Below are positions 24,093 to 40,630 of a stretch of 40,630 nt of DNA, in pieces; positions within the stretch are counted from its first letter, which is position 1, and each line of letters opens with the position of its first letter. The notes below the pieces were generated by a model, which had not been told where the DNA came from, did not search any database, and saw only the letters and a list, made by a program, of their open reading frames with translations. Both the position numbers and the translations under genes were made by a program. Source of the stretch: an archaeon BMS3Abin17 (GTDB lineage: Archaea; Nanobdellota; Nanobdellia; Pacearchaeales; GW2011-AR1); contig BDTJ01000007.1 of assembly GCA_002897655.1 (NCBI GenBank), positions 1-40,630 on the forward strand. The letters run 5' to 3'.

Positions 24093-27000
24093 TTAATTTA
24101 CAAAATTAAACTGCCTCCAATCTGTTGAATTGCAAAAATAAATAGTAGTTGTGTTTCTTGCTATTAAACCTGCTTCTGCACAAGTTGGGAGAGTTATTGC
24201 AGTTAATTTTAGTAATTTATTTATTGTGATATTTCCTGATTCTAAAACATCATTGCCTGTGGCTCCGATTAAGACCTTTCCTGTTCCTACCACATTAGGG
24301 TCAATAATTAAATCTGTCCCGTTATAATATATTTTAGCGTCTCCGCCTGTTCCAAACTTTACTTGTTGATTATCGTCAAAATCCAGACTTTCTGTTCCTG
24401 CGTCAAATCTTGCAATCTCAGCTAAATCACCGTAGAAAATTGTGTCTCTGTCATTTTTATTTGTATTGAATTTAATGGATGTGTCAGCATTAAAATCAAG
24501 AGAGACTGTCCCTGCGAACCGAATGAATGTCGTTCCCCCAATACTATCCTTCAATCGCATATATCCGCCAAGAGAACCCATATCATACTTAACGCCATTT
24601 CCTGCATCCTCAAATGTCATATACCCATCTACCGGACTGAAAATATGAAATAGTGAGGTTGGAGTATTTGTTCCTATTCCTATTCTTCCATTCGTGCCGT
24701 CTATAAACAAAGCATTTGGAGCGCCTACTCCCTCAACCCTAAAATCTTTATCTGCTCCCGCTTCGTTTATCGTTACTGCTCCGTCTAAAACATAATCTCC
24801 TGTGCCTGTATCTCCTGTATTTAAAAGATAATCACTATGTGCTTGGGAATTGTTTTGACTATGGTCATAAGCTGTCTGCATTTCTAAAACAGAAGCATTA
24901 TTTGTTCCGTCTGTTAAGTTTCCTGAAACATCCAAATCAGCAAACCATCCTTTTGTAATTTTATCTGTTGAACTCCCAATTATATCTGCAAATAAAGAAT
25001 TAGCTATATTTAGATTACTCCAAACTTTTACTTCATCATTTGAACGATTTAAAATGTTATTGACTGTAATATTATCTGCACCGAGGATTAGGCTTCCCAG
25101 ATAAGATGTTCCTGTTACGTTTAAGTTTGTAAAAGTCCCCCAATCAGAAGTTGTGTTTCCTGTAACATTTAAATTTCCGGTTATTCTTAACCAGCCATTG
25201 ACAATATTATCTAAAATTCCTCCGAGAGTAAAAGTTATTTTTTCCCCCAAAGTTAAATTTGTTATATCTGAAATGTCTGCATCTGCAATTGTTCCGTCTG
25301 TTATTTCTGAACTTTCAACAGAAGTGCCAAGAGTGGAATTAATCTCTGTTCCTGTAATAATGATGCCGTCTCCTGCTGTATAAATTGTATCAGAATCCCT
25401 ATTGTCTATCGTGCTATTCAACTGAGTCTCATTAAACATTATATTTGCTGAGTCATTATAAACATATTTTCCAGAAGTTCCTTTTTGTGTATCTGAACTT
25501 AAACAGCCAGTCCCATTGCTTAGGCAAACATCTGTTAATTGGGAGCCGTTTCCAAAAAAGTAGTCTGCACTGAAATTTGCAACCTGATAGTTTGATGTTG
25601 AATCAAGGTTATCTGTAATATTGGCCCGGTAAGAGTAGGGCGTAGAAGTTAAATTAATCAAAGGAGTCATTTCAGATTCATTGTTTATCTGCACCCCTAA
25701 ATAATAATCTCCTTTGAAAGAGATATTCACAGGGCTTAAAATATGGGAGTATACTCCATTGGAATCAACAATGACTGAATTATTTGCAGACTCCCATAAC
25801 TTAGTTCCGCTTGTCGCAGCATCATAAATTCTAAAGGTCATATTAAAAGTCCCATTAACTGCACTTCCAGTACTATTAGTTAATTTTCCATGCAGATTTA
25901 TTGTCTGAGGGATAGGACCTGACGCGGAATTTCTTGCCTGTGCTTTTTGCCCTCCAAAATTAAACTCTAATACATGCTTTCCTGTTGTAAGTACTTTGCT
26001 AATCTCGTAGCTAGTTCCATTGCATGAGTAGTCTTCTACAAAAACCGAATCATTAATCCACTCGTATCCTAAAACCTCCCCACTACATTTTATTTGTAAG
26101 AATTTCAGGTCTTCATAATTATCATTGTTACTCCATGTAGTTCCTTCTACAGCACTAATTGTTAGATTTGCCATTCCATTAGTAGTAAATCTAACTGTCC
26201 AGTTGCCTCCGACTGTCGGATAACTTTGAACATTTAAGATGATAATCTCCAACTCATATGTCTGATTGCTTAAATGTGGAACAACCCATTCAATGTAATC
26301 AATCAATGAATTGTTGTTTGTATCATAAGCTTCAAAATTTGTGAGTAGTTTTGAGCCATTCACAATATGATAGAGTTTTACCAGTTTTGGGTTAGAAACT
26401 TCTTTTGGTAATTCTGTGAACGCTAAAACATTTTTGTAATGAAACTCTGAGGATATAGTTATATTTTTTTTGCTTTCAGTGGTTTTCTCAAAGGAAACAG
26501 GTCCGGGGGTTTCATACTCTATTTCAAACTCAGTTGCATTTTCCTCAATAACTACTTGCTTAATTTCTGTTGTTTCCTGAACATCTATTGCTCTTCCTGT
26601 TATTTTGCTGAATATCCTCTTAAAAAAACCCGCAATCAGAGATTTTTCTTCAGCTTCACCTAAATCAATTTCTGCTGATATTTTTCCGGAAATTACCTGT
26701 GCTGTAACTTTTATCTTGGTTTTCTTTGATTTTTTCTCCTTGCCTTCTTTTGCTTTTTCTGATTTATTAATAACCTGTTTTTCAATTGTTTCATTAGTAA
26801 CAATCCCTGTCTCATTAATCACCTCTTCTATCACTTCTTCACTCTCATTAATTGCTGGCTCTTCTGCTGTCTCGTTGATGATTGTGGTATTCTCTGCCAG
26901 CTCCTCTTTCTCCCCTCTGATTATTTTGTATACTGTAATATTTTCTGCTTGTTTTGGAATTTCAATAGTTAAATTACTGGATGACTTATTAGTCTTAATT

Positions 27001-28034
27001 TCTTTTTTCCATTTAACAGGTTTTCCTAAAATAGCATTATATTGGATTGTATTAATTGTCATATCACCAACAGAAGTTATGTTTATTACTGTCTCATTGA
27101 CAGGAGTTTCATTAACAATTGTAATATTTTGCCCTGTGATATTTGCCTCAATTGTTACATTAGTCTCATTTACTGCAGTAATATTAGTTTCTGTTGTTTC
27201 ATTCATTATAGTAATATTTGCTTCTGTCTCATTCCCCTGTGTTGTTTCATTAGGCTCAGCAGAAGGCTCAGCAGAGTTATCCTTTGAGGAGTCACCTCGT
27301 GGTGAGAGGTTCTCGTGCCCTTTTTGGGTATCCCTTGGGGAAACTGGTTCTTCAACAGGTGTTTCAGTTGGAACTTCCCCTGTTGATTCCTCTGAAATAG
27401 TTTCCTCAGCAGGAGGCTCAGTAGAGTCATCCCTAGAGGATTCTTCTTCAGCTGAAGTCTCTTCTGTTAATTCTTCAGTTGAGGTGTCTGAAGTTGTTTC
27501 GCTGGATGTCTCTGTTGGAGTTTCTTTTGGTGGAGCCTCCTCAGTTGATGATTCAGGTGCTGCTTCTGACTCAGGAGTTGGTTCGGGTTCTGGAGCAGGT
27601 TCTTCTGTAGGAGGTGCTTCAGGTGCTGCTTCTTCTGTTACAAAACCAGTTAAAAAAGAATAAACTTTTCTGGCACTACTCACTACAAAGTTTTCCTTGG
27701 ATTGCTCTATTTTCCTGCTAAATCCTGCTTCTCCTGAACTAATATTGGGAACAAGACTCTTGCTTGTTAAAGAAGTTTTTTGATTTAATACAAATAAACC
27801 AGCAGATAATAAAATAACTATTCCAATCACAAGAGATAAAAATAAGTATTTTTTGCTGAATTTTCTGGGTTGTTTTTTCACAGTTACACTACGTATTCTC
27901 TTAGATCTTTTTGGTCCAGAAATATATTTTGAGACAACATTTCCGTCCTTATCCTTGTGGCTCTCATAATAATAGGGTCCAAAAGTCTTAATCTTTCCAT
28001 TCACCTTTCTTTTAATATACCTCTTATAAACCAT
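24093..28034 (-). CDS. Giant membrane/surface protein: MVYK..YIK module, TM, Pro/Glu/Thr stalk, tail-fibre-like C-terminus
   Basis: 1313 aa; MVYKRYIKRKVNGKIKTFGPYYYES; TM FLSLVIGIVILLSAGLFVL; PET-rich stalk; GRIGIGTNTPTSLFHI tail-fibre-like pattern. Confidence 0.8.
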   Translation of the reverse strand: MVYKRYIKRKVNGKIKTFGPYYYESHKDKDGNVVSKYISGPKRSKRIRSVTVKKQPRKFSKKYLFLSLVIGIVILLSAGLFVLNQKTSLTSKSLVPNISSGEAGFSRKIEQSKENFVVSSARKVYSFLTGFVTEEAAPEAPPTEEPAPEPEPTPESEAAPESSTEEAPPKETPTETSSETTSDTSTEELTEETSAEEESSRDDSTEPPAEETISEESTGEVPTETPVEEPVSPRDTQKGHENLSPRGDSSKDNSAEPSAEPNETTQGNETEANITIMNETTETNITAVNETNVTIEANITGQNITIVNETPVNETVINITSVGDMTINTIQYNAILGKPVKWKKEIKTNKSSSNLTIEIPKQAENITVYKIIRGEKEELAENTTIINETAEEPAINESEEVIEEVINETGIVTNETIEKQVINKSEKAKEGKEKKSKKTKIKVTAQVISGKISAEIDLGEAEEKSLIAGFFKRIFSKITGRAIDVQETTEIKQVVIEENATEFEIEYETPGPVSFEKTTESKKNITISSEFHYKNVLAFTELPKEVSNPKLVKLYHIVNGSKLLTNFEAYDTNNNSLIDYIEWVVPHLSNQTYELEIIILNVQSYPTVGGNWTVRFTTNGMANLTISAVEGTTWSNNDNYEDLKFLQIKCSGEVLGYEWINDSVFVEDYSCNGTSYEISKVLTTGKHVLEFNFGGQKAQARNSASGPIPQTINLHGKLTNSTGSAVNGTFNMTFRIYDAATSGTKLWESANNSVIVDSNGVYSHILSPVNISFKGDYYLGVQINNESEMTPLINLTSTPYSYRANITDNLDSTSNYQVANFSADYFFGNGSQLTDVCLSNGTGCLSSDTQKGTSGKYVYNDSANIMFNETQLNSTIDNRDSDTIYTAGDGIIITGTEINSTLGTSVESSEITDGTIADADISDITNLTLGEKITFTLGGILDNIVNGWLRITGNLNVTGNTTSDWGTFTNLNVTGTSYLGSLILGADNITVNNILNRSNDEVKVWSNLNIANSLFADIIGSSTDKITKGWFADLDVSGNLTDGTNNASVLEMQTAYDHSQNNSQAHSDYLLNTGDTGTGDYVLDGAVTINEAGADKDFRVEGVGAPNALFIDGTNGRIGIGTNTPTSLFHIFSPVDGYMTFEDAGNGVKYDMGSLGGYMRLKDSIGGTTFIRFAGTVSLDFNADTSIKFNTNKNDRDTIFYGDLAEIARFDAGTESLDFDDNQQVKFGTGGDAKIYYNGTDLIIDPNVVGTGKVLIGATGNDVLESGNITINKLLKLTAITLPTCAEAGLIARNTTTIYFCNSTDWRQFNFVN

Positions 28035-30679: not shown

Positions 30680-33600
30680 TTATGGGCTTCCCCCTTCCTG
30701 CACTGTTCTTATGTCAAAAGTGTTGTTATACCACCCCGCTGGCTGTCCGCCAGGAACATCTAAAAAGAATTTTAAGTAAATTACACTTCCATCTCCGAGG
30801 GATTTTCCAATTGATGAATAACTTGTAGTCATTGTAACATTGGTTGCATTAACTAATGTGTTGTTTATTGAACTATACGCATAACTTTCATTTCCTAATC
30901 CTAAAACATCTATTCCTCCAGCTGTTATAAGATTCCCGCTTGCTTTAAGATATACATCTACCAAAGTATTTGTTGCAGATATATTCACCCAATAAGTTGT
31001 CTTGCCATTTGAATCATTATTTCCAATTGCATCTAAATCAATTACAGGCAAAGTGGTTACGTTCCACCATGCTCCAAAACTCAGATTAGGTGATAAAAGC
31101 ACTGCCCACGAAGGTGTTCCTGTAATATTAAACTCCCAAACATCTGACTGGTTGGTATAGGTTCCGTCGCTGACATTTCCCTTCCAAAAATACTTTCCAT
31201 TCTTTAATCTGTAATGATCTAATATCTCTGTTGCATTCAGAGCTCTGTTATATATTGCTACATCGTCTATAGCACCATCGAAAAATTGGACTCCCCCTGC
31301 ATGAGGAATTCTTCCAATCTCCTTGTCATTGCCTACTCCTGAATCAGTATTATATGTTCCCTCTCCAGGAGTTCTAGAAGAATAAGATGTTTCAGACCCG
31401 TCAACATATAAAGTTGCATTTTTACTGCTTGCATCCCAAACTGCAACAACATGGTGCCATTGATTATCATTAATTACTCCGTAAGAAGAATAAAAAAAGG
31501 CACTCGTAGTTGTATGATAAGCATCAAAAACTAAAGACCTATCCCCACTAGAGTTTGTGGTCATTCTGAAATTCCATCCATCAGGAACCCCAAAAGCTCC
31601 AGAAGCCTGATAACATCCAAAAATACTATCCCAACTACTAATTGAAGAATCGACATATACCCATGCAGAAATTGTAAAATTAGCTGTTGGGAGATCATTA
31701 AGTGACGAGGGTCTTCCAAGTCCAACATAATCATCCACGCCATCAAACTCAAATGCACCTGCAAACTTTCCTCCTGTCAGGTTAAACGTGGGGTCTGTTC
31801 CAGATGTTGCATTACCCAGTGTTCCATTATTTCCATTACCTGAAAAATCATAAACACAATCTGCCTGATTTCTCACAGTGCATTCGCCAAATTCACTAAG
31901 ATTATCCAAATGCCATAATCCAACCAGACTGTCTTCTGACGGTTTCACAGGCAATGCAGTCAGATTATAATTAATATCTGTTCCATTTGGAACATTATAC
32001 TGCATGTAAACCAATCCTTCAGAGAAATTCAGTCCATTAGAATTATTATTTGCAAATAAATAAACAGTCATATTATCATTGTCACCGTCAGTAACTGTTG
32101 CATTTAATAAAACTGATTCTGAAGAAATAATTGAAGCATTCTGTGGAGCTGTTAAGTTTATTTCAGGAACATAAGCATTATCTATTGTCAGCGTAACACC
32201 CCAGACATCTGACTGATTAGAATTTCCTGCAGAATCATTGAAATACCATGTCCAGTTTATATCGCCTGTATCTGCAGTTATTGTTTTAGTAACTTGAACT
32301 TCCTGTCCATTAGTATAACTTGTCGCTGAATTATTTTCCCATGCTGTTCCATTATACCAGCTAAAGATATAAGTTCCTGGATTTGTATCATTCAGTGTAA
32401 TGTTAAAGTAAACTAAATTTCCTTGGGGTGTAGACGCTGTAAGGTTTGTCTTATTGTTTTCCCATGTTGGAGGGGTTGTGTCAATTGTAACAGTTCTTTG
32501 CTCTGTCTGGTTTGTGTATCCTAATGCATCAATTACATGTGCTGTGTAATTATAATTTCCTTCAGCTAAACCTGTGAAGTTATTGAATAGCCTATATGCT
32601 CCTGCATTGTATGATGCATTGATTTCTTCAGGTGACAATGCTCTTGAGAAAATCATTACTTCGTCTATTGTTCCGTTGAGATGATACAAAGAACTTCCGA
32701 CACTACTATCCCATCTAGCACCCATCGTTACTCTTCCTGTTCCTTTATAAATGGAATTGCTCCATAAGCTTGTACTTTGTTTAATTCCATTATAATAACT
32801 TACTACAGTGGATCCATTAAAAGTAAAAGTAATGTACTGCCATTCATTAGATATAACTGATGAAATTGGTGCTAAATTTTCAGTAGCACTGGTTCCACTT
32901 GAAGAAAGAACCATCTCCAAATCACTATAAGTGCCATCGTCAAATCTTACAGCATAGCTCCACTCACTCAACCAATCTTCTCCTTTAACCAGAAGATAAC
33001 TGTAAGTTTGTGATGGCGATGAGTCTTTAGGATAAATCCACATTGATATTGTAAAATTATTTATATCCAAACTTGCATCATCACTAACACTAACATAATC
33101 ATCAATTCCATCAAAATCCAAACCCTTGCCTCTCTTACCAGTAACTATATCAGAAGTACTTAATCCTCCATTAAATGTTCCAAAATTATTCCAGGTTGAA
33201 TTATCATAAATTCCACTTGCATTATACTCATCAAACTTCCACCATCCAATCAAACTTCTGTTCCAGTCAATAAATGCAGAGTGGTTGCTTGCGTCGCTGG
33301 TTGAAACATTTACATAAACTGCTGTTGCAGACTGAACTGTATTATCCGAAGGTGTCGGGTTTGTGAAGTTTATATCAGGAGGTGTTGTATCCCCTGCACT
33401 CACATTAACCAGTAGAATACTTGAATTCAAATTTCCAAGAGTATCATTTATTGAAACATTAATATAATACTCTCCAACACTTAATGCAGATGTGTTAGTT
33501 AATACACCTGTTGATGAGACTATGCTAAAGGTTGAAGTCCAGTTAATTGCAAAACTATCTAACCCAACACCGTCGTCTGCTGCATTAATATCATAATTTA

Positions 33601-36600
33601 AACTCTGGCCAGCAGAAAGTGTTTGATTAGCCCAGTTTGTAAAATAAGGTGGTTGAGTATCAATTGTAAATGTAACACTTGAACTGTTTTCATTGTTTGC
33701 TGTATCATTTATATAAACAATAATTGTGTTGCTACCTTCACTCCAGGCTTCTCCTGTTATATTAGTTGTGCAATCTGTAAGAGAATTATTTGTTGCCCCG
33801 GCATCACTCGTCCACCAGCATGAGTCTGGACTTGTTTCTGTGTAAGTATAATTAACATCAAGTAAAGTATTAGTTGTGTTTGTATTATTTGATGGGTATA
33901 ATATTGATATTCCTGGGTAAATTGTATCTTTAAAAAATGTCACACTTGTTGAATTTTCATTGCCTGCTGTATCATTAATATATATTGTCCATGTATTTGA
34001 TCCTTCATTAGAGACTGCATTTGTGAAATTAGCCCCACAATTCACACGGCTAGAGTTAGTTGCTCCGCCATCAGTTGAATACCAGCATGAATCAGGACTT
34101 GCTTCTGTGAAAGTATAATTCAGTTCAGACACATTCACATTATAAGTTGTATTTTGAGGATAAACTATACTTATTACAGGTAGTGTTGTATCAATTGTAA
34201 ATGTTACTGAATCAGAACCTTCATTGTTATTAGAATCATTTGCCCATACAGTAACATTATGCTGTCCTTCACTCCATGTAATTGTCGTTATATTATTACA
34301 GGATGTCCCTAAACTTGTATTAATAGACATTGTATCATTAGAATACCAGCATGAATCTAAACTAGAGTCTGAAACAGTATAATTTACATCAAGTAAAGTA
34401 TTAGTTGTGTTTGTGTTGTTTGAGGGATACACAATGCTAATTGATGGAGGAGTCTGGTCATCAAACACTAAAGTCACACTCCAGACATCTGACTGATTAG
34501 AATTTCCTGCAGTATCATTGAAATACCATGTCCAGTTTATATCACCTGTATCAATATTGATTGTTTTAGTAACAGAAACTTCTTGTCCATTAGTATAACT
34601 TGTCGCTGAATTATTTTCCCATGCTGTTCCATTATACCAGCTAAATATATAATATCCTGGATTTGTATCATTCAAAGTTATATTAAAATATACTTGCTGT
34701 CCTTGAGATGTAGACGCTGTTAGATTAGTTTTGTTGTTTTCCCATGTTGGATAAGTTGTATCTATTGTAATTATCCTTTGCTCTGTTTGATTTGTATATC
34801 CTAATGCATCAATTACATGAGCAGTATAATTATAATTTCCATCTGATAAACCTGTGAAGTTGCTGAATAATCTATAACTTCCTGCATTGTATGACGCATT
34901 TATTTCTTCTGGTGATAAAACCCGATTAAATATCATTACTTCATCTATTGTTCCATTGAAATACTCGTCGTCTCCGCCTCCAACTCTACCAATTTCAAGA
35001 TTAACAGCATCATTATCAATTGTTCCCCCATTTGAAGCGCTATTTTCTAAGACCCCGTCAACATATATCATCAAATCAGTCCCATTATTAATTCCAACAA
35101 TATAATGCCAACTCCCATCACTAACTAATGTGGTTGATTCTCCTGAACTATAGAAAGTATTTGATTTAAATATACCAAATCTTACTTTTTCTGAGGCTGA
35201 AACACTATATTGAAGGAGATAGTCTCTATTAGTAGCCACATCATCTTTACTCACAATTCGTGACACAGAAGTATCTGTTGTTTTTATCCAAGCAGAAATA
35301 GTCAAATTTCCTGTTATTTGTAAAGAACTTGGATTTCCCACATCAACATAATCATCCACACCATCAAAATCAATTGCCTGTCCTCTTGCTCCAGTAACAG
35401 TTGTATTTGTCGCATGATTATATAAAGTTCCGTGATTAGAATTCCCTGACCAAATCCCTTTTTCATTTTCTCTTCTAACCAGAACAATATCATTTTCAAC
35501 ATCAACATCATATATCTTTCCATCATACTTTTCTTTTGTAATCGACTTAACTTTTATTGGATTGTTTTCTGAGTCCAGGAAGTAGATTTCATTGTTATTG
35601 TTGAATTCTGAATAAACTTCTTTTATTGGTTTTAAACTAAAGTCCTCAAGACCAAAAGATTTATATACTTGCACATCTTTCACAGAATACACAGAATTTG
35701 AATGTGTTAAAATGCCAAACATAACTTTATCAATACCAGAAGAATTGAAAAAGCAAATAGACGAACTGCCAGAGCTGAACCTTTCAGAATCCATGCGTAA
35801 ATTCTTATCTGAAAAAGTTAAAAGAGCATTATTACTTAAGAAATTAGATAAAATGCTTGAGAATTCTGAATTAACTGAAGAAGATTGTTTAAGACTTGGG
35901 GACAAGGTTAAGGAAGGTGTGTGGAAGCGATACAAGAAAGAAGGTTGGTAAAAAATGCAATTAGTTGTTGACTCTAATATACTACTATCTTTTTTTAGGG
36001 ACAATCCAGTAAGATTTATCATTATAAATTCAGATGTTTTTGGAATAAAATTATCAACCCCAGAATATGTAACTGATGAATTAAAGAAAAATGAGTCAGA
36101 TATATTAAAATATTCTAGACTCAATTCAGAGCAATTTAATGAAGCATTAATAGAGTTATCAAATTTTGTGGAGATAATTCCTAAAAAATTATTCAAACAG
36201 TTTGAATCCAAGGCCAAAGAATTAACACACAATAAAGACATTCCAATATTCGCGCTTGCATTGAAGTTAAACTGTGCAATCTGGTCTAATGAACCTAAAT
36301 TTAAGAAACAGTCTTCTGTAGAAATATTCAATACAAAAGATTTAAGGAAATTGTTCAATACCTGATTTTCTTCTCCAGTATAAACCTTATGATCTTCGCT
36401 AACCAATAAATCACTTCCATCTTCTAAGATAATCTTATACATATCATTATTATAATCAAACTCTTGGTATTCTAAAGGCATCTGATATTCTAATTCCATT
36501 GTTTCCTGATTCAATGTTGCAACCTCTTCTGTTTTATCTAATTCAAAGAAATATTTCCATCCTTCATTAGTAAGTATCTCGGTTTCATTATCATAGCAAT

Positions 36601-39600
36601 GAGTTGAATTATCATAAACTGTTCCATTGGATAAAACACTTTCAAAATTCCACCATCCTCTTAAAGTATAATTCCAGTCAATAAATGCAGAGTGATTACT
36701 TGCGTCGCTGGTTGAAACATTCACATAAACAGAAGTTGCTGATTGAGATGATGCATTTGGAGGTGTTGGGTCTGTGAAGTTTATTGCAGGAACAATTGTA
36801 TCAATTGTGAATGTAATACTTGAGCTGTTTTCATTGCCCGCTGAATCATTTGCCCAGACAGTAACATTATGCTGTCCTTCTGCCCATGTAATTGCTGTTA
36901 TATTTATGCAACTTGCTAAAGTTATATTTACAGACATGGAATCATTTGAATACCAGCAAGAATCAACACCAACACCTGCATCTGAAACAGTATAATTAAC
37001 ATTCAATCCAGTATTACTGCTGAAAGTATTATTTGAAGGATAAACAATACTTATTAATGGAGGTGTCTGGTCATCAAATACAAGTGTAACACTCCATACA
37101 TCTGACTGATTATTATTTCCTGCTGTATCATTGAAATACCATGTCCAGTTTATATCACCCACGTCAATATTAATTATCTTTGTAACAGAAACTTCTTGCC
37201 CGTCTGTATAACTCACTGCTGAATTATTCTCCCAATCTGTTCCATTATACCAGCTAAACACATAATCTCCTGGATTAGTGTCATTTAGAGTTATATTAAA
37301 GTAAACTTGGTTGCCATTAGGTGTAGACGCTGTAAGGTTTGTCTTATTGTTCTCCCATGTCGGAGATGTTGTATCAACACTAAACTCCCATACTTCACTT
37401 TCATCACTCAAACTTCCATCGCTGACATTTCCTTTCCAGTAATATTTCCCTTCTGCTAATCTGTAGTGATCTAATATCTCTGCTGCTGATAAGCTTCTGT
37501 TATAGATTGCTACTTCGTCTATCATTTCATTACAAGAAGAATCTCCAATATTTCCTCTTCCAATTTGAAGATTAGTAGCATTCTCAAGAAAACTTCCTGT
37601 TCCAGTGCAAGATTCAGAATCCTGCACTCCATTAAAATAAACATAAGAATCACTTCCATTCCATGTAACTACAAGATGTGTCCAATCATCAACTGTTAAT
37701 TCAGTAGATGTTTGAAAATTACAATCACTACCATCTGATGTATCTATAACTATTGTTAAATTATCACTACCACCAGTATTACGAATGTGGGGAGTTTGTT
37801 TAGAACCCCAGCTACCTTTACCTAAAATCACACACAAGCCTGCATCTGCAACATTCGGCTTTACCCAAAGCATAACACTAAATGCACTTGAACCATTTAA
37901 TTCATTCATAGTAGTTGTTAGAGCTTGATTATCTAATATTGAAAAATTATAAGCTCCAGCAAACTTACCTCCACTTTTATTATATGATATTGGACAATTA
38001 ATACCACAAGTTAAATTATTATCTCCCCCAGCAAAATCATAAATATTAGTATTATTCTCTCCAAACTCACTTAGATTATCAAAATGCCACAATGCAATCA
38101 ACCCACTTTCAGACGGCTTTACAGGCAGAGCAGTTAAATTATAAATCACCCCACTTCCATTGGCCACATTTTCCTGAATATAAACAAGTCCTTCTGACAT
38201 ATTCGGTCCATTACTATTATTATTAGCATAGAAATAAACTGTCATATTTTGCAAATTATCATATACAGTTGCATTTAATAAACTCCAATTTAAAGTTGTA
38301 AATGAATTATTGTCTGGTTTGTTTAAAGTGATTGAAGGAGCAGTTGTATCAATAGTAAATGTAACACTTGAACTGTTTTCATATCCATTAGAATCATTTG
38401 CCCAGACAGTTACATTATGCTGTCCTTCTGTCCATGTAACTGTTGTGATATTTATACAGCTTGTTCCCAAACTAATATTCACACTCATACTATCATTAGA
38501 ATGCCAGCATGAATCAACACCAACACCTGCATCTGAAACAGTATAATTAACATCTAATCCAGTGTTTGAACTAAAGGTATTATTTTCAGGATATACAATA
38601 CTGATTAATGGAGCAGTCTGGTCATCAAACACCAAGGTAACACTCCAGACATCACTCTGATTGCTATTTCCTGCTGAATCATTAAAATACCATGTCCAGT
38701 TTATATCACCTGTATCAATATTAATTGTTTTTGTTACTTCAATCTCCTGCCCGTCAGTATACGACGCTGCTGAATTATTTTCCCAGTCTGTTCCATTATA
38801 CCAGCTGAAAATGTAATCACCCGGATTTGTATCATTCAAAGTTATATTAAAGTAAACTTGGTTTCCTTGAGGTGTAGACGCTGTCAGGTTTGTTTTATTG
38901 TTTTCCCATGTTGGAGGGGTTGTGTCAATTGTGACTGTTCTCTGCTCTGTTTGATTTGTATTCCCAGCAACATCTATAACATGTGCTGTGTAATTATAAT
39001 TTCCGTCAGCCAATCCTGTAAAATTATTAAACAGCCTGTATGTTCCTGCATTATAACTTGAGTTAATTTCTTCTGGTGTCAGTACCCTATTGAAAATCAT
39101 TGCTTCATCTATTGAACCATTAAATCTTTCAAAATAAGATCCTGCAGGAGACATTAGGACATCTGCTCCAGTTATCTTAGTGACACTTCTTGAAACACAA
39201 TTATCTAATACTCCATTAAGATATGCACAGATATTAGTTGAATTATACGTTCCCACAAGGTAATACCACTGGTTTGTTCCTAAAATAGTGGTCCCCCCAG
39301 CAGATTCTTGTACCCCCCCTATTTTAAGAAGGAAAACATAGTTGTTTGTACTTCCACTACCAAGCCAAAGTAGATTATTGCTATCAATTTCTTGTTGAAG
39401 TACACCTACTCTGTAAAAATCTCCACTACCTGTACCATAAGAATAAACCCAAGCAGAATAAGTTCCAGATTCATTATTATCAAAGACACTATTAGCAGAG
39501 ATGCTCACATAATCATTAATCCCATCAAAATCCAAACCTTTTCCTCTTTTAGCGTCAGTTATATCAGATGTACTCTGTCCTCCATTAAATTTACCGAAAT

Positions 39601-40630
39601 TGCTCCAAGTTGAATTATCAAAGATTCCACTTGCATTATACTCATCCATCTTCCACCAACCAACCAAACTCCTGTTCCAGTCAATAAATGCAGAGTGGTT
39701 GCTTGCGTCGCTGGTTGAAACATTTACATAAACTGCTGTTGCAGACTGAACTGTATTATCCGAAGGTGTAGGGTCTGTGAAGTTTATTGCAGGAGGTGTT
39801 GTATCTCCTGCACTCACATTAACCAATAAGATTGAAGAATTAAGATTGTTTAGGGTATCATTTATTGAAACATTAATATAATACTCTCCAACACTTAATG
39901 CAGATGTGTTAGTTAATACACCTGTTGATGAGACTATGCTAAAGGTTGAAGTCCAGTTAATTGCAAAACTATCTAACCCAACACCGTCGTCTGCTGCATT
40001 AATATCATAATTCAAGCTCTGACCAGCAGAAAGTGTTTGATCAGCCCAATTTGTAAAATATGGTGGTGTTGTATCTACAATAAAAGTCACAGACGATGAA
40101 TTTTGATTATTGCTTGAATCATTTGCCCAGACAGTAACATTATGCTGTCCTTCTGCCCATGTAACTGTTGTTATATTTGAGCAGGTTGTTCCTAAACTTA
40201 TGTTCAACAACATTGTATCATTAGAATACCAGCAAGAATCTAATGAAGTTTCATCTGTTGCTGTGTAATTTACATCAAGTAAAGTATTAGTTGTGTTTGT
40301 GTTGTTTGATGGATACACAATGCTAATTGATGGAGCAGTTGAATCAACAAAGAAAGTTACAGAACTGCTGTTTTCATTACCTGCAGTATCATTTATATAA
40401 ACTGTCCAGGTTGAACTTCCCTGTCCTGAGTTGAGCCCTGTAACATTTTGTCCGCAAGTTATAGTAGTATTTGAAGCCCCACTATCTAAGGAATACCAGC
40501 AAGTATCTGAATTTATTTCTGTGTAAGTGTAATTTAATGTTGTTTGAACAGAAGTATAAGTTGTATTTAAGGGGTTTGTCAGATTTATTTCTGGGAAAAT
40601 TGAATCTATGAAAAAAGTTACACTCTCTGT
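30680..40630 (-). CDS. Giant surface adhesin, 5'-truncated by window edge; Ig-like repeats and five LamG-like domains, third split by an intein
   Basis: Frame stays open from 40318 to window end; repeated TWENNKTNLTAST...WYNGT and GWWK(M/F)DEYNASG...DNSTW LamG starts. Confidence 0.9.
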   Translation of the reverse strand, partial: TESVTFFIDSIFPEINLTNPLNTTYTSVQTTLNYTYTEINSDTCWYSLDSGASNTTITCGQNVTGLNSGQGSSTWTVYINDTAGNENSSSVTFFVDSTAPSISIVYPSNNTNTTNTLLDVNYTATDETSLDSCWYSNDTMLLNISLGTTCSNITTVTWAEGQHNVTVWANDSSNNQNSSSVTFIVDTTPPYFTNWADQTLSAGQSLNYDINAADDGVGLDSFAINWTSTFSIVSSTGVLTNTSALSVGEYYINVSINDTLNNLNSSILLVNVSAGDTTPPAINFTDPTPSDNTVQSATAVYVNVSTSDASNHSAFIDWNRSLVGWWKMDEYNASGIFDNSTWSNFGKFNGGQSTSDITDAKRGKGLDFDGINDYVSISANSVFDNNESGTYSAWVYSYGTGSGDFYRVGVLQQEIDSNNLLWLGSGSTNNYVFLLKIGGVQESAGGTTILGTNQWYYLVGTYNSTNICAYLNGVLDNCVSRSVTKITGADVLMSPAGSYFERFNGSIDEAMIFNRVLTPEEINSSYNAGTYRLFNNFTGLADGNYNYTAHVIDVAGNTNQTEQRTVTIDTTPPTWENNKTNLTASTPQGNQVYFNITLNDTNPGDYIFSWYNGTDWENNSAASYTDGQEIEVTKTINIDTGDINWTWYFNDSAGNSNQSDVWSVTLVFDDQTAPLISIVYPENNTFSSNTGLDVNYTVSDAGVGVDSCWHSNDSMSVNISLGTSCINITTVTWTEGQHNVTVWANDSNGYENSSSVTFTIDTTAPSITLNKPDNNSFTTLNWSLLNATVYDNLQNMTVYFYANNNSNGPNMSEGLVYIQENVANGSGVIYNLTALPVKPSESGLIALWHFDNLSEFGENNTNIYDFAGGDNNLTCGINCPISYNKSGGKFAGAYNFSILDNQALTTTMNELNGSSAFSVMLWVKPNVADAGLCVILGKGSWGSKQTPHIRNTGGSDNLTIVIDTSDGSDCNFQTSTELTVDDWTHLVVTWNGSDSYVYFNGVQDSESCTGTGSFLENATNLQIGRGNIGDSSCNEMIDEVAIYNRSLSAAEILDHYRLAEGKYYWKGNVSDGSLSDESEVWEFSVDTTSPTWENNKTNLTASTPNGNQVYFNITLNDTNPGDYVFSWYNGTDWENNSAVSYTDGQEVSVTKIINIDVGDINWTWYFNDTAGNNNQSDVWSVTLVFDDQTPPLISIVYPSNNTFSSNTGLNVNYTVSDAGVGVDSCWYSNDSMSVNITLASCINITAITWAEGQHNVTVWANDSAGNENSSSITFTIDTIVPAINFTDPTPPNASSQSATSVYVNVSTSDASNHSAFIDWNYTLRGWWNFESVLSNGTVYDNSTHCYDNETEILTNEGWKYFFELDKTEEVATLNQETMELEYQMPLEYQEFDYNNDMYKIILEDGSDLLVSEDHKVYTGEENQVLNNFLKSFVLNISTEDCFLNLGSLDQIAQFNFNASANIGMSLLCVNSLALDSNCLNNFLGIISTKFDNSINASLNCSELSLEYFNISDSFFFNSSVTYSGVDNFIPKTSEFIMINLTGLSLKKDSSILESTTNCIFYQPSFLYRFHTPSLTLSPSLKQSSSVNSEFSSILSNFLSNNALLTFSDKNLRMDSERFSSGSSSICFFNSSGIDKVMFGILTHSNSVYSVKDVQVYKSFGLEDFSLKPIKEVYSEFNNNNEIYFLDSENNPIKVKSITKEKYDGKIYDVDVENDIVLVRRENEKGIWSGNSNHGTLYNHATNTTVTGARGQAIDFDGVDDYVDVGNPSSLQITGNLTISAWIKTTDTSVSRIVSKDDVATNRDYLLQYSVSASEKVRFGIFKSNTFYSSGESTTLVSDGSWHYIVGINNGTDLMIYVDGVLENSASNGGTIDNDAVNLEIGRVGGGDDEYFNGTIDEVMIFNRVLSPEEINASYNAGSYRLFSNFTGLSDGNYNYTAHVIDALGYTNQTEQRIITIDTTYPTWENNKTNLTASTSQGQQVYFNITLNDTNPGYYIFSWYNGTAWENNSATSYTNGQEVSVTKTINIDTGDINWTWYFNDTAGNSNQSDVWSVTLVFDDQTPPSISIVYPSNNTNTTNTLLDVNYTVSDSSLDSCWYSNDTMSINTSLGTSCNNITTITWSEGQHNVTVWANDSNNNEGSDSVTFTIDTTLPVISIVYPQNTTYNVNVSELNYTFTEASPDSCWYSTDGGATNSSRVNCGANFTNAVSNEGSNTWTIYINDTAGNENSTSVTFFKDTIYPGISILYPSNNTNTTNTLLDVNYTYTETSPDSCWWTSDAGATNNSLTDCTTNITGEAWSEGSNTIIVYINDTANNENSSSVTFTIDTQPPYFTNWANQTLSAGQSLNYDINAADDGVGLDSFAINWTSTFSIVSSTGVLTNTSALSVGEYYINVSINDTLGNLNSSILLVNVSAGDTTPPDINFTNPTPSDNTVQSATAVYVNVSTSDASNHSAFIDWNRSLIGWWKFDEYNASGIYDNSTWNNFGTFNGGLSTSDIVTGKRGKGLDFDGIDDYVSVSDDASLDINNFTISMWIYPKDSSPSQTYSYLLVKGEDWLSEWSYAVRFDDGTYSDLEMVLSSSGTSATENLAPISSVISNEWQYITFTFNGSTVVSYYNGIKQSTSLWSNSIYKGTGRVTMGARWDSSVGSSLYHLNGTIDEVMIFSRALSPEEINASYNAGAYRLFNNFTGLAEGNYNYTAHVIDALGYTNQTEQRTVTIDTTPPTWENNKTNLTASTPQGNLVYFNITLNDTNPGTYIFSWYNGTAWENNSATSYTNGQEVQVTKTITADTGDINWTWYFNDSAGNSNQSDVWGVTLTIDNAYVPEINLTAPQNASIISSESVLLNATVTDGDNDNMTVYLFANNNSNGLNFSEGLVYMQYNVPNGTDINYNLTALPVKPSEDSLVGLWHLDNLSEFGECTVRNQADCVYDFSGNGNNGTLGNATSGTDPTFNLTGGKFAGAFEFDGVDDYVGLGRPSSLNDLPTANFTISAWVYVDSSISSWDSIFGCYQASGAFGVPDGWNFRMTTNSSGDRSLVFDAYHTTTSAFFYSSYGVINDNQWHHVVAVWDASSKNATLYVDGSETSYSSRTPGEGTYNTDSGVGNDKEIGRIPHAGGVQFFDGAIDDVAIYNRALNATEILDHYRLKNGKYFWKGNVSDGTYTNQSDVWEFNITGTPSWAVLLSPNLSFGAWWNVTTLPVIDLDAIGNNDSNGKTTYWVNISATNTLVDVYLKASGNLITAGGIDVLGLGNESYAYSSINNTLVNATNVTMTTSYSSIGKSLGDGSVIYLKFFLDVPGGQPAGWYNNTFDIRTVQEGGSP
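33258..33598. repeat. Near-identical internal duplication with 39672-40012 (offset 6414)
   Basis: 98-nt identical run (33258-33355 = 39672-39769) and 158-nt identical run (33441-33598 = 39855-40012). Confidence 0.9.
35661..35698 (+). promoter_or_regulatory. Candidate vapBC promoter inside the Hint C-terminal coding region
   Basis: ttatata at 35661-35667 after purine-rich aaaag, ~45 nt before the vapB ATG; direct repeat cacagaat(a/t) at 35681-35689 and 35690-35698. Confidence 0.45.
35712..35951 (+). CDS. vapB: VapB-type ribbon-helix-helix antitoxin, antisense within intein
   Basis: MPNITLSIPEELKKQIDELPELNLSESMRKFLSEKVKRALL... RHH-like N-terminus; 3 nt upstream of the PIN gene. Confidence 0.85.
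   Translation: MPNITLSIPEELKKQIDELPELNLSESMRKFLSEKVKRALLLKKLDKMLENSELTEEDCLRLGDKVKEGVWKRYKKEGW
35955..36365 (+). CDS. vapC: VapC-type PIN-domain toxin, antisense within intein
   Basis: MQLVVDSNILLSFFRD (PIN motif 1), STPEYVTDELKKNE, NKDIPIFALALKLNCAIWSNEPKFKK (later acidic motifs). Confidence 0.88.
   Translation: MQLVVDSNILLSFFRDNPVRFIIINSDVFGIKLSTPEYVTDELKKNESDILKYSRLNSEQFNEALIELSNFVEIIPKKLFKQFESKAKELTHNKDIPIFALALKLNCAIWSNEPKFKKQSSVEIFNTKDLRKLFNT

Follow-up and report, generated by a model that had tools for sequence, protein, structure and literature searches.

Antisense toxin-antitoxin operons occupy the place of the homing endonuclease in a clade of inteins found mainly in DPANN archaea

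Textbooks explain the persistence of inteins by homing endonucleases, and the penultimate residue of an intein is usually His. Mini-inteins likewise consist of splicing halves without an endonuclease, but the inteins described here keep a long insert that codes for a toxin-antitoxin (TA) module on the other strand. These nested modules share families, gene order and adjacent or overlapping genes with the type II TA systems VapBC, RelBE/ParE and COG2442(DUF433)-PIN, from which they differ by lying antisense inside a still-readable open reading frame, whereas the described systems of these kinds are, to our knowledge, all free-standing. In the same lineage as the inteins reported here, the LAGLIDADG inteins of Desulfonema magnum (L069) and of viral contigs (L078-L081) possess homologous Hint halves, a CYDDETEILT start, and the same penultimate Gly and terminal Asn. 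Their insert is located at the same site between the two halves, but it encodes a homing endonuclease on the sense strand and never an antisense TA module, and their junction ends in CGN followed by T, compared to WSGN followed by S in the TA-bearing clade. Pairs of PIN and COG2442 genes are described as TA loci in an earlier study (PMC3834315). Finally, TA modules located on plasmids, ICEs, prophages, integrons and transposons also combine a selfish element with a possible maintenance device; a 2025 review on TA systems in mobile elements (PMC12548467) lists these carriers and makes no mention of inteins. The first-pass annotation of the locus knew of no intein with an antisense TA module, and a search of 5.39 million open-access papers, a coverage with which priority is not certain, found no report of a TA module within an intein either.

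The window, a stretch of 40,630 nucleotides from the archaeon BMS3Abin17, contains at 30680-40630 (-) a giant adhesin-like open reading frame of 3316 codons, whose 5' end is open and exits the contig, and whose LamG-type repeats are visible both in the translation and by self-comparison. Within it, the intein spans 35441-36598 (-) and comprises 386 residues without any stop, the host frame being continuous across the whole insertion. It starts with CYDNETEIL and ends with WSGN, then Ser (Cys1 at 36596-36598, terminal Asn386 at 35441-35443, +1 Ser codon at 35438-35440). The N-terminal Hint half, with blocks A and B, lies at 36380-36598 (-), where it matches our Hint profile with 124 bits and the NCBIfam model TIGR01445 (intein_Nterm) with 28.8 bits for a cut-off of 24.5. 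The C-terminal half, with blocks F and G, lies at 35438-35641 (-), the +1 extein Ser included, and matches the profile with 116 bits, while the intein as a whole matches the Pfam family Intein_splicing with E=1.4e-7, under the gathering score. In line with these matches, AlphaFold predicts an intein fold made of residues 1-80 and 317-386, mostly at pLDDT 80-94, interrupted by a disordered linker of 236 residues (81-316, pLDDT about 28). The top Foldseek matches of this model in the PDB are inteins and Hedgehog/Hint domains, six of them with E<=0.001, down to 3e-4. Across 12 aligned inteins of the clade, Cys1 and His70 are invariant, and the terminal Asn and the +1 Ser are found in all aligned members whose end is included. 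The penultimate residue is Gly, which is common to the endonuclease-bearing cousins. The splice-junction residues of the window intein are intact, and it presumably splices.

The linker itself, encoded at 35651-36358 (-), is the antisense reading of a vapBC operon and its promoter, and contains no endonuclease: a profile search revealed no LAGLIDADG in the intein, and Pfam no HNH match. As for the insertion site, an alignment with paralogous LamG repeats from elsewhere in the host protein runs without gap across the joined junction (DNSTH followed by SNHG), and self-comparison gives two such intein-free repeats, at 32996-33289 (-) and 39431-39703 (-). The window intein is thus a precise in-frame insertion whose empty site is present in the paralogous repeats. 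The first-pass annotation, made from the letters alone, had already proposed the two Hint halves in the minus frame, the lack of a homing endonuclease, the antisense nature of the insert and the existence of intein-less LamG repeats, all of which are borne out here.

The nested vapBC operon, at 35712-36365 (+), occupies the homing-endonuclease site of the intein. The antitoxin gene comes upstream (35712-35951 (+), 79 amino acids) and is separated by 3 nt from the toxin gene (35955-36365 (+), 136 amino acids), as initially described, and an archaeal TATA-box-like element, TTTATATA, is found at 35660-35667 (+), 52 nt upstream of vapB. An 8/8 match was recorded at 19 of 26 nested antitoxin genes, compared to 7.9% in shuffled sequences. 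Of the two families that had been proposed, the PIN toxin is firmly recovered (PIN_2, 76 bits, E=4e-21, cut-off 22.4), and D6, E42 and D95 are conserved in all 14 nested VapC sequences aligned. The RHH antitoxin is more weakly matched: VapB hits NCBIfam NF050799, an archaeal VapB family, with E=3e-6, below the cut-off, and RHH_1 with E=0.03, and a fold search with its monomer model returned no significant match, although the helices of this model suit an RHH protein. The RHH assignment is likely, though weak by itself. Taken as a pair, the two window genes are presumably active. The same genome has a second, free-standing VapBC (G000:C14:13356-13745, L002), whose VapC is 30% identical. Elsewhere in the window, a 352-codon open reading frame at 26605-27663 (+), without Pfam match, runs antisense to a 1313-codon one at 24093-28034.

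Searching 184 genomes of the same family as the window genome with the Hint part alone uncovered many relatives, in which the Hint halves stand 0.2-1.4 kb apart in giant open frames, and almost all of these loci, once read, turned out to contain TA operons in antisense orientation. A wider scan of 85,462 species genomes extended the hosts to Pacearchaeota and other Nanoarchaeota MAGs, Aenigmarchaeota LH_S7, Euryarchaeota ND3_Bin_21 and a Hydrothermota bacterium; the TA-bearing inteins reside mostly in DPANN archaea, plus one bacterial MAG. The screen of inteins for antisense open reading frames that the first-pass annotation had suggested thereby yielded, in the lineage of the window intein, 21 frame-intact inteins holding 28 TA modules: 15 VapBC, nine RelBE/ParE-like and four DUF433-DUF5615. 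All 28 are antisense, and no LAGLIDADG was detected by profile search in the fetched loci of these 21 inteins. The inteins near that of the window carry antisense TA genes (a tRNA in L039) and are devoid of LAGLIDADG, whereas the more distant ones have a sense-strand LAGLIDADG and are devoid of antisense TA genes, with the exceptions of L082, which shows neither, and of L085, which is truncated. Since TA-bearing inteins served to build the Hint profile, the search could be biased toward their clade; this concern is limited since 24 endonuclease-bearing cousins were still recovered.

TA genes account for 73% of the insert length in the 21 frame-intact inteins. No other protein cargo was recognised there, since what remains of antisense open reading frames of at least 60 amino acids is either an antitoxin gene, in L037, or attributable to chance, and neither the 184-genome nor the 85,462-genome search found a cargo-free clade member. 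The cargo recurs at three positions: one follows CYDNETEIL, another is the classical endonuclease site, and the third separates the last Hint strand from WSGN. Regarding the families, PIN_2 was matched by 14 of 14 nested VapC tested, DUF433 with E=8e-23, DUF5615 with E=5e-13 and ParE_toxin slightly above its cut-off, while several RelB-like and RHH-like antitoxins without a Pfam match of their own were named by position and mutual similarity. VapC is abundant in these genomes, with 112 matches in 62 of the 184. Among viral contigs, no VapC relatives were found. Phage and plasmid collections were covered as well: the former gave 45 matches, all below 60% identity, and the latter a single one, in a radical SAM protein for which the record mentions an intein homing domain.

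A striking property of the nested genes is that both strands are kept readable. Over 59 nested TA genes, no host-frame stop was counted, whereas 97.7 were expected from resampling synonymous codons at the genomic usage of the window; as a single codon table served for all genomes and the 59 genes are not independent, this difference is an effect size rather than an exact probability. The absence of stops where about 98 were expected nevertheless implies that the reading frames are maintained on both strands. In the window taken singly, the openness of the antisense frame comes as no surprise (P0 of 0.60 for vapC and 0.99 for vapB), and the idea that this openness is special to the window pair is therefore unsupported; what is surprising is the openness across the family. 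VapC, VapB, RelB and DUF5615 share one antisense phase, and RelE and DUF433 use another. Stops are far scarcer in the phase that VapC occupies (2.0 per 100 codons) than in the others (8.5-12.9), which accounts for the antisense orientation of the cargo. Only 14 of 95 free VapC genes lack a stop in the corresponding phase, and among 24 RelE genes in loci without Hint match, 21 have 1-7 stops, the three stop-free ones being an extein-nested copy (L305) and two free cassettes (L301 and L302). Synonymous shuffling within a gene is too conservative as a test of the open frame because the nested RelE and DUF433 genes wholly lack TTA, CTA and TCA.

In a tree of the Hint parts, the 21 TA-bearing inteins and the single tRNA-bearing one form one clade of 22 rows with a support of 99/97, and 24 of the 25 rows outside this clade have LAGLIDADG, L082 being the one without. 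The VapC tree (110 sequences) looks very different: the clade VapCs require 16 changes between nested and free states, which is close to random placement, at least 14 of these changes being forced by well-supported branches, and the inheritance of the nested TA modules as a single vertical clade is thereby ruled out. Together, the Hint clade and the VapC changes argue that there was probably a single switch from endonuclease to TA, followed by recurrent capture from, or exchange with, the free pool. Traffic in the other direction is suggested by two RelBE modules located outside any intein (L301, G032:C26, and L302, G078:C19), which are 72-78% identical to a nested one and whose antisense frame is still fully open; TA modules would therefore have moved both into and out of inteins. 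Co-resident inteins whose Hint parts are 55-74% identical mostly carry different TA families. Taken as a proof of addiction, this pattern was set aside, as it is not significant (P=0.06-0.19) and only suggestive.

Antisense TA modules are also found beyond this clade. In L091 (G157:C29, 312-1391), an antisense VapBC sits in a second, unrelated intein family (CVAEDSLISM...IANGIVAHN followed by T), which matches Intein_splicing with 80 bits as well as TIGR01445 and TIGR01443. Decayed inteins were observed too: intein remnants flank still-complete VapC coding sequences in G046 (L193 and L214, decayed copies of the second family in which VapC is kept) and in G070, and a degraded intein fragment does so in G112. 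In G122, both inteins (L047 and L048) are broken at the same spot of the N-half, after ELQLPTERQI, with their TA genes open. Given that some inteins have decayed around intact TA genes, the TA modules may guard the DNA from deletion rather than splicing from decay. Antisense nesting is moreover not exclusive to inteins, since in L038 (G155:C8, 3025-4370) a VapBC and a RelBE lie antisense and host-frame-open in the extein of an adhesin, where there is no intein; they adjoin duplicated segments (FLSDFIPxATSKEKEYxSFxDITNKV). Besides, a sense-strand tRNA-Leu(CAA) gene is present in four inteins (L038 9871-9956, L039 778-862, L040 3327-3413 and L047 679-761), with a recognisable remnant in the intein of L048, and these genes are read through in the host frame. 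L039 is the clade member in which the tRNA is the only cargo. The tRNA as an essential cargo is rejected for G034 and G155, each of which has a second tRNA-Leu(CAA) elsewhere.

How, then, could these inteins persist? The first-pass annotation had suggested maintenance by addiction, and we consider this the best-fitting explanation, with a probability somewhat better than even. According to this model, a clade of inteins would have lost its homing endonuclease and taken up antisense type II TA operons instead. The nested operon would be transcribed from its own promoter, and the lack of host-frame stops would allow the host protein to be translated through and spliced, the cassettes having been recoded over evolution so that it stays translatable and spliceable. 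A precise loss of the intein, for instance when an intein-free LamG repeat overwrites it by gene conversion, would remove the antitoxin gene, and the stable toxin would outlast the antitoxin and poison the cell; persistence would in this way depend on addiction instead of homing. That these inteins amount to a new class of selfish element, an "addiction intein" which has abandoned homing, whose loss kills or stalls the cell, and which swaps unrelated recoded antisense TA cassettes, is a broader claim to which we give even chances. Addiction is favoured because no empty members were found and no other protein cargo was recognised, and it is further backed by the repeated recruitment of three unrelated kinds of TA and by the clade-wide absence of the endonuclease. 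Also counted in its favour are the single Hint clade, the many nested/free changes of VapC, the stop-free host frame, the TATA boxes, the conserved acidic residues of the PIN toxins, the precise empty site and the complete TA genes kept by decayed inteins. The original suggestion gains indirect support from an exclusive and recurrent TA cargo in an endonuclease-free clade, and is limited by the extein TA genes of L038 and by the decayed inteins with intact TA. The points against it comprise L038, the tRNA-only L039 and the penultimate Gly; in addition, with so many TA modules in these genomes, some capture is to be expected.

This last consideration leads to the main rival, a neutral safe harbour, in which mobile and abundant TA modules simply accumulate in inteins, where they are harmless since they are spliced out; the module would benefit, and the intein would have no need of it. 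The abundance of the modules, the intermixing of nested and free VapC on the tree, the antisense TA genes in the extein of L038 and the RelBE cassettes that lie outside inteins and still have their antisense frame open all fit such an accumulation. It accounts poorly for the failure to find an empty clade member, when no member should be easier to detect than one without cargo, for the lack of any non-TA protein cargo and for the endonuclease missing throughout the clade, and we regard it as possible but doubtful. Distinctly unlikely, in our opinion, is that the antisense TA module controls adhesin expression, through antisense transcription or through antitoxin binding at the promoter within the adhesin gene, or that it is a stress or anti-virus device located incidentally in an intein. 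TA systems have established roles in stress and against phages, and here their promoter is internal to the host gene, in opposite orientation, yet neither the precise tie to one intein clade and the missing endonuclease nor the unrelated TA kinds at equivalent sites would be explained. An assembly artefact or chance open frames would be extremely improbable: every clade member does lie on a draft or metagenome-assembled contig, and the open antisense frame of the window is by itself not improbable, but the host frame is stop-free in 59 of 59 nested genes, and a misassembly, about which the first-pass annotation had been cautious, is contradicted by the same architecture in about 20 genomes, over several phyla and sites.

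Inteins and TA systems are each well known, and it is their combination that appears to be new; were addiction confirmed, it would count as a new kind of element. A clade of inteins devoid of endonuclease needs another answer to the question of persistence, and addiction is one that can be directly tested. Inteins join the mobile elements known to carry TA modules, and the present loci provide many natural examples of protein-gene pairs in which one gene is fully nested antisense in the other and both strands keep their reading frames, useful for studying the evolution of overlapping genes. Finally, the TA families that tolerate such a second frame may serve as tools for stabilising an inserted sequence against loss.
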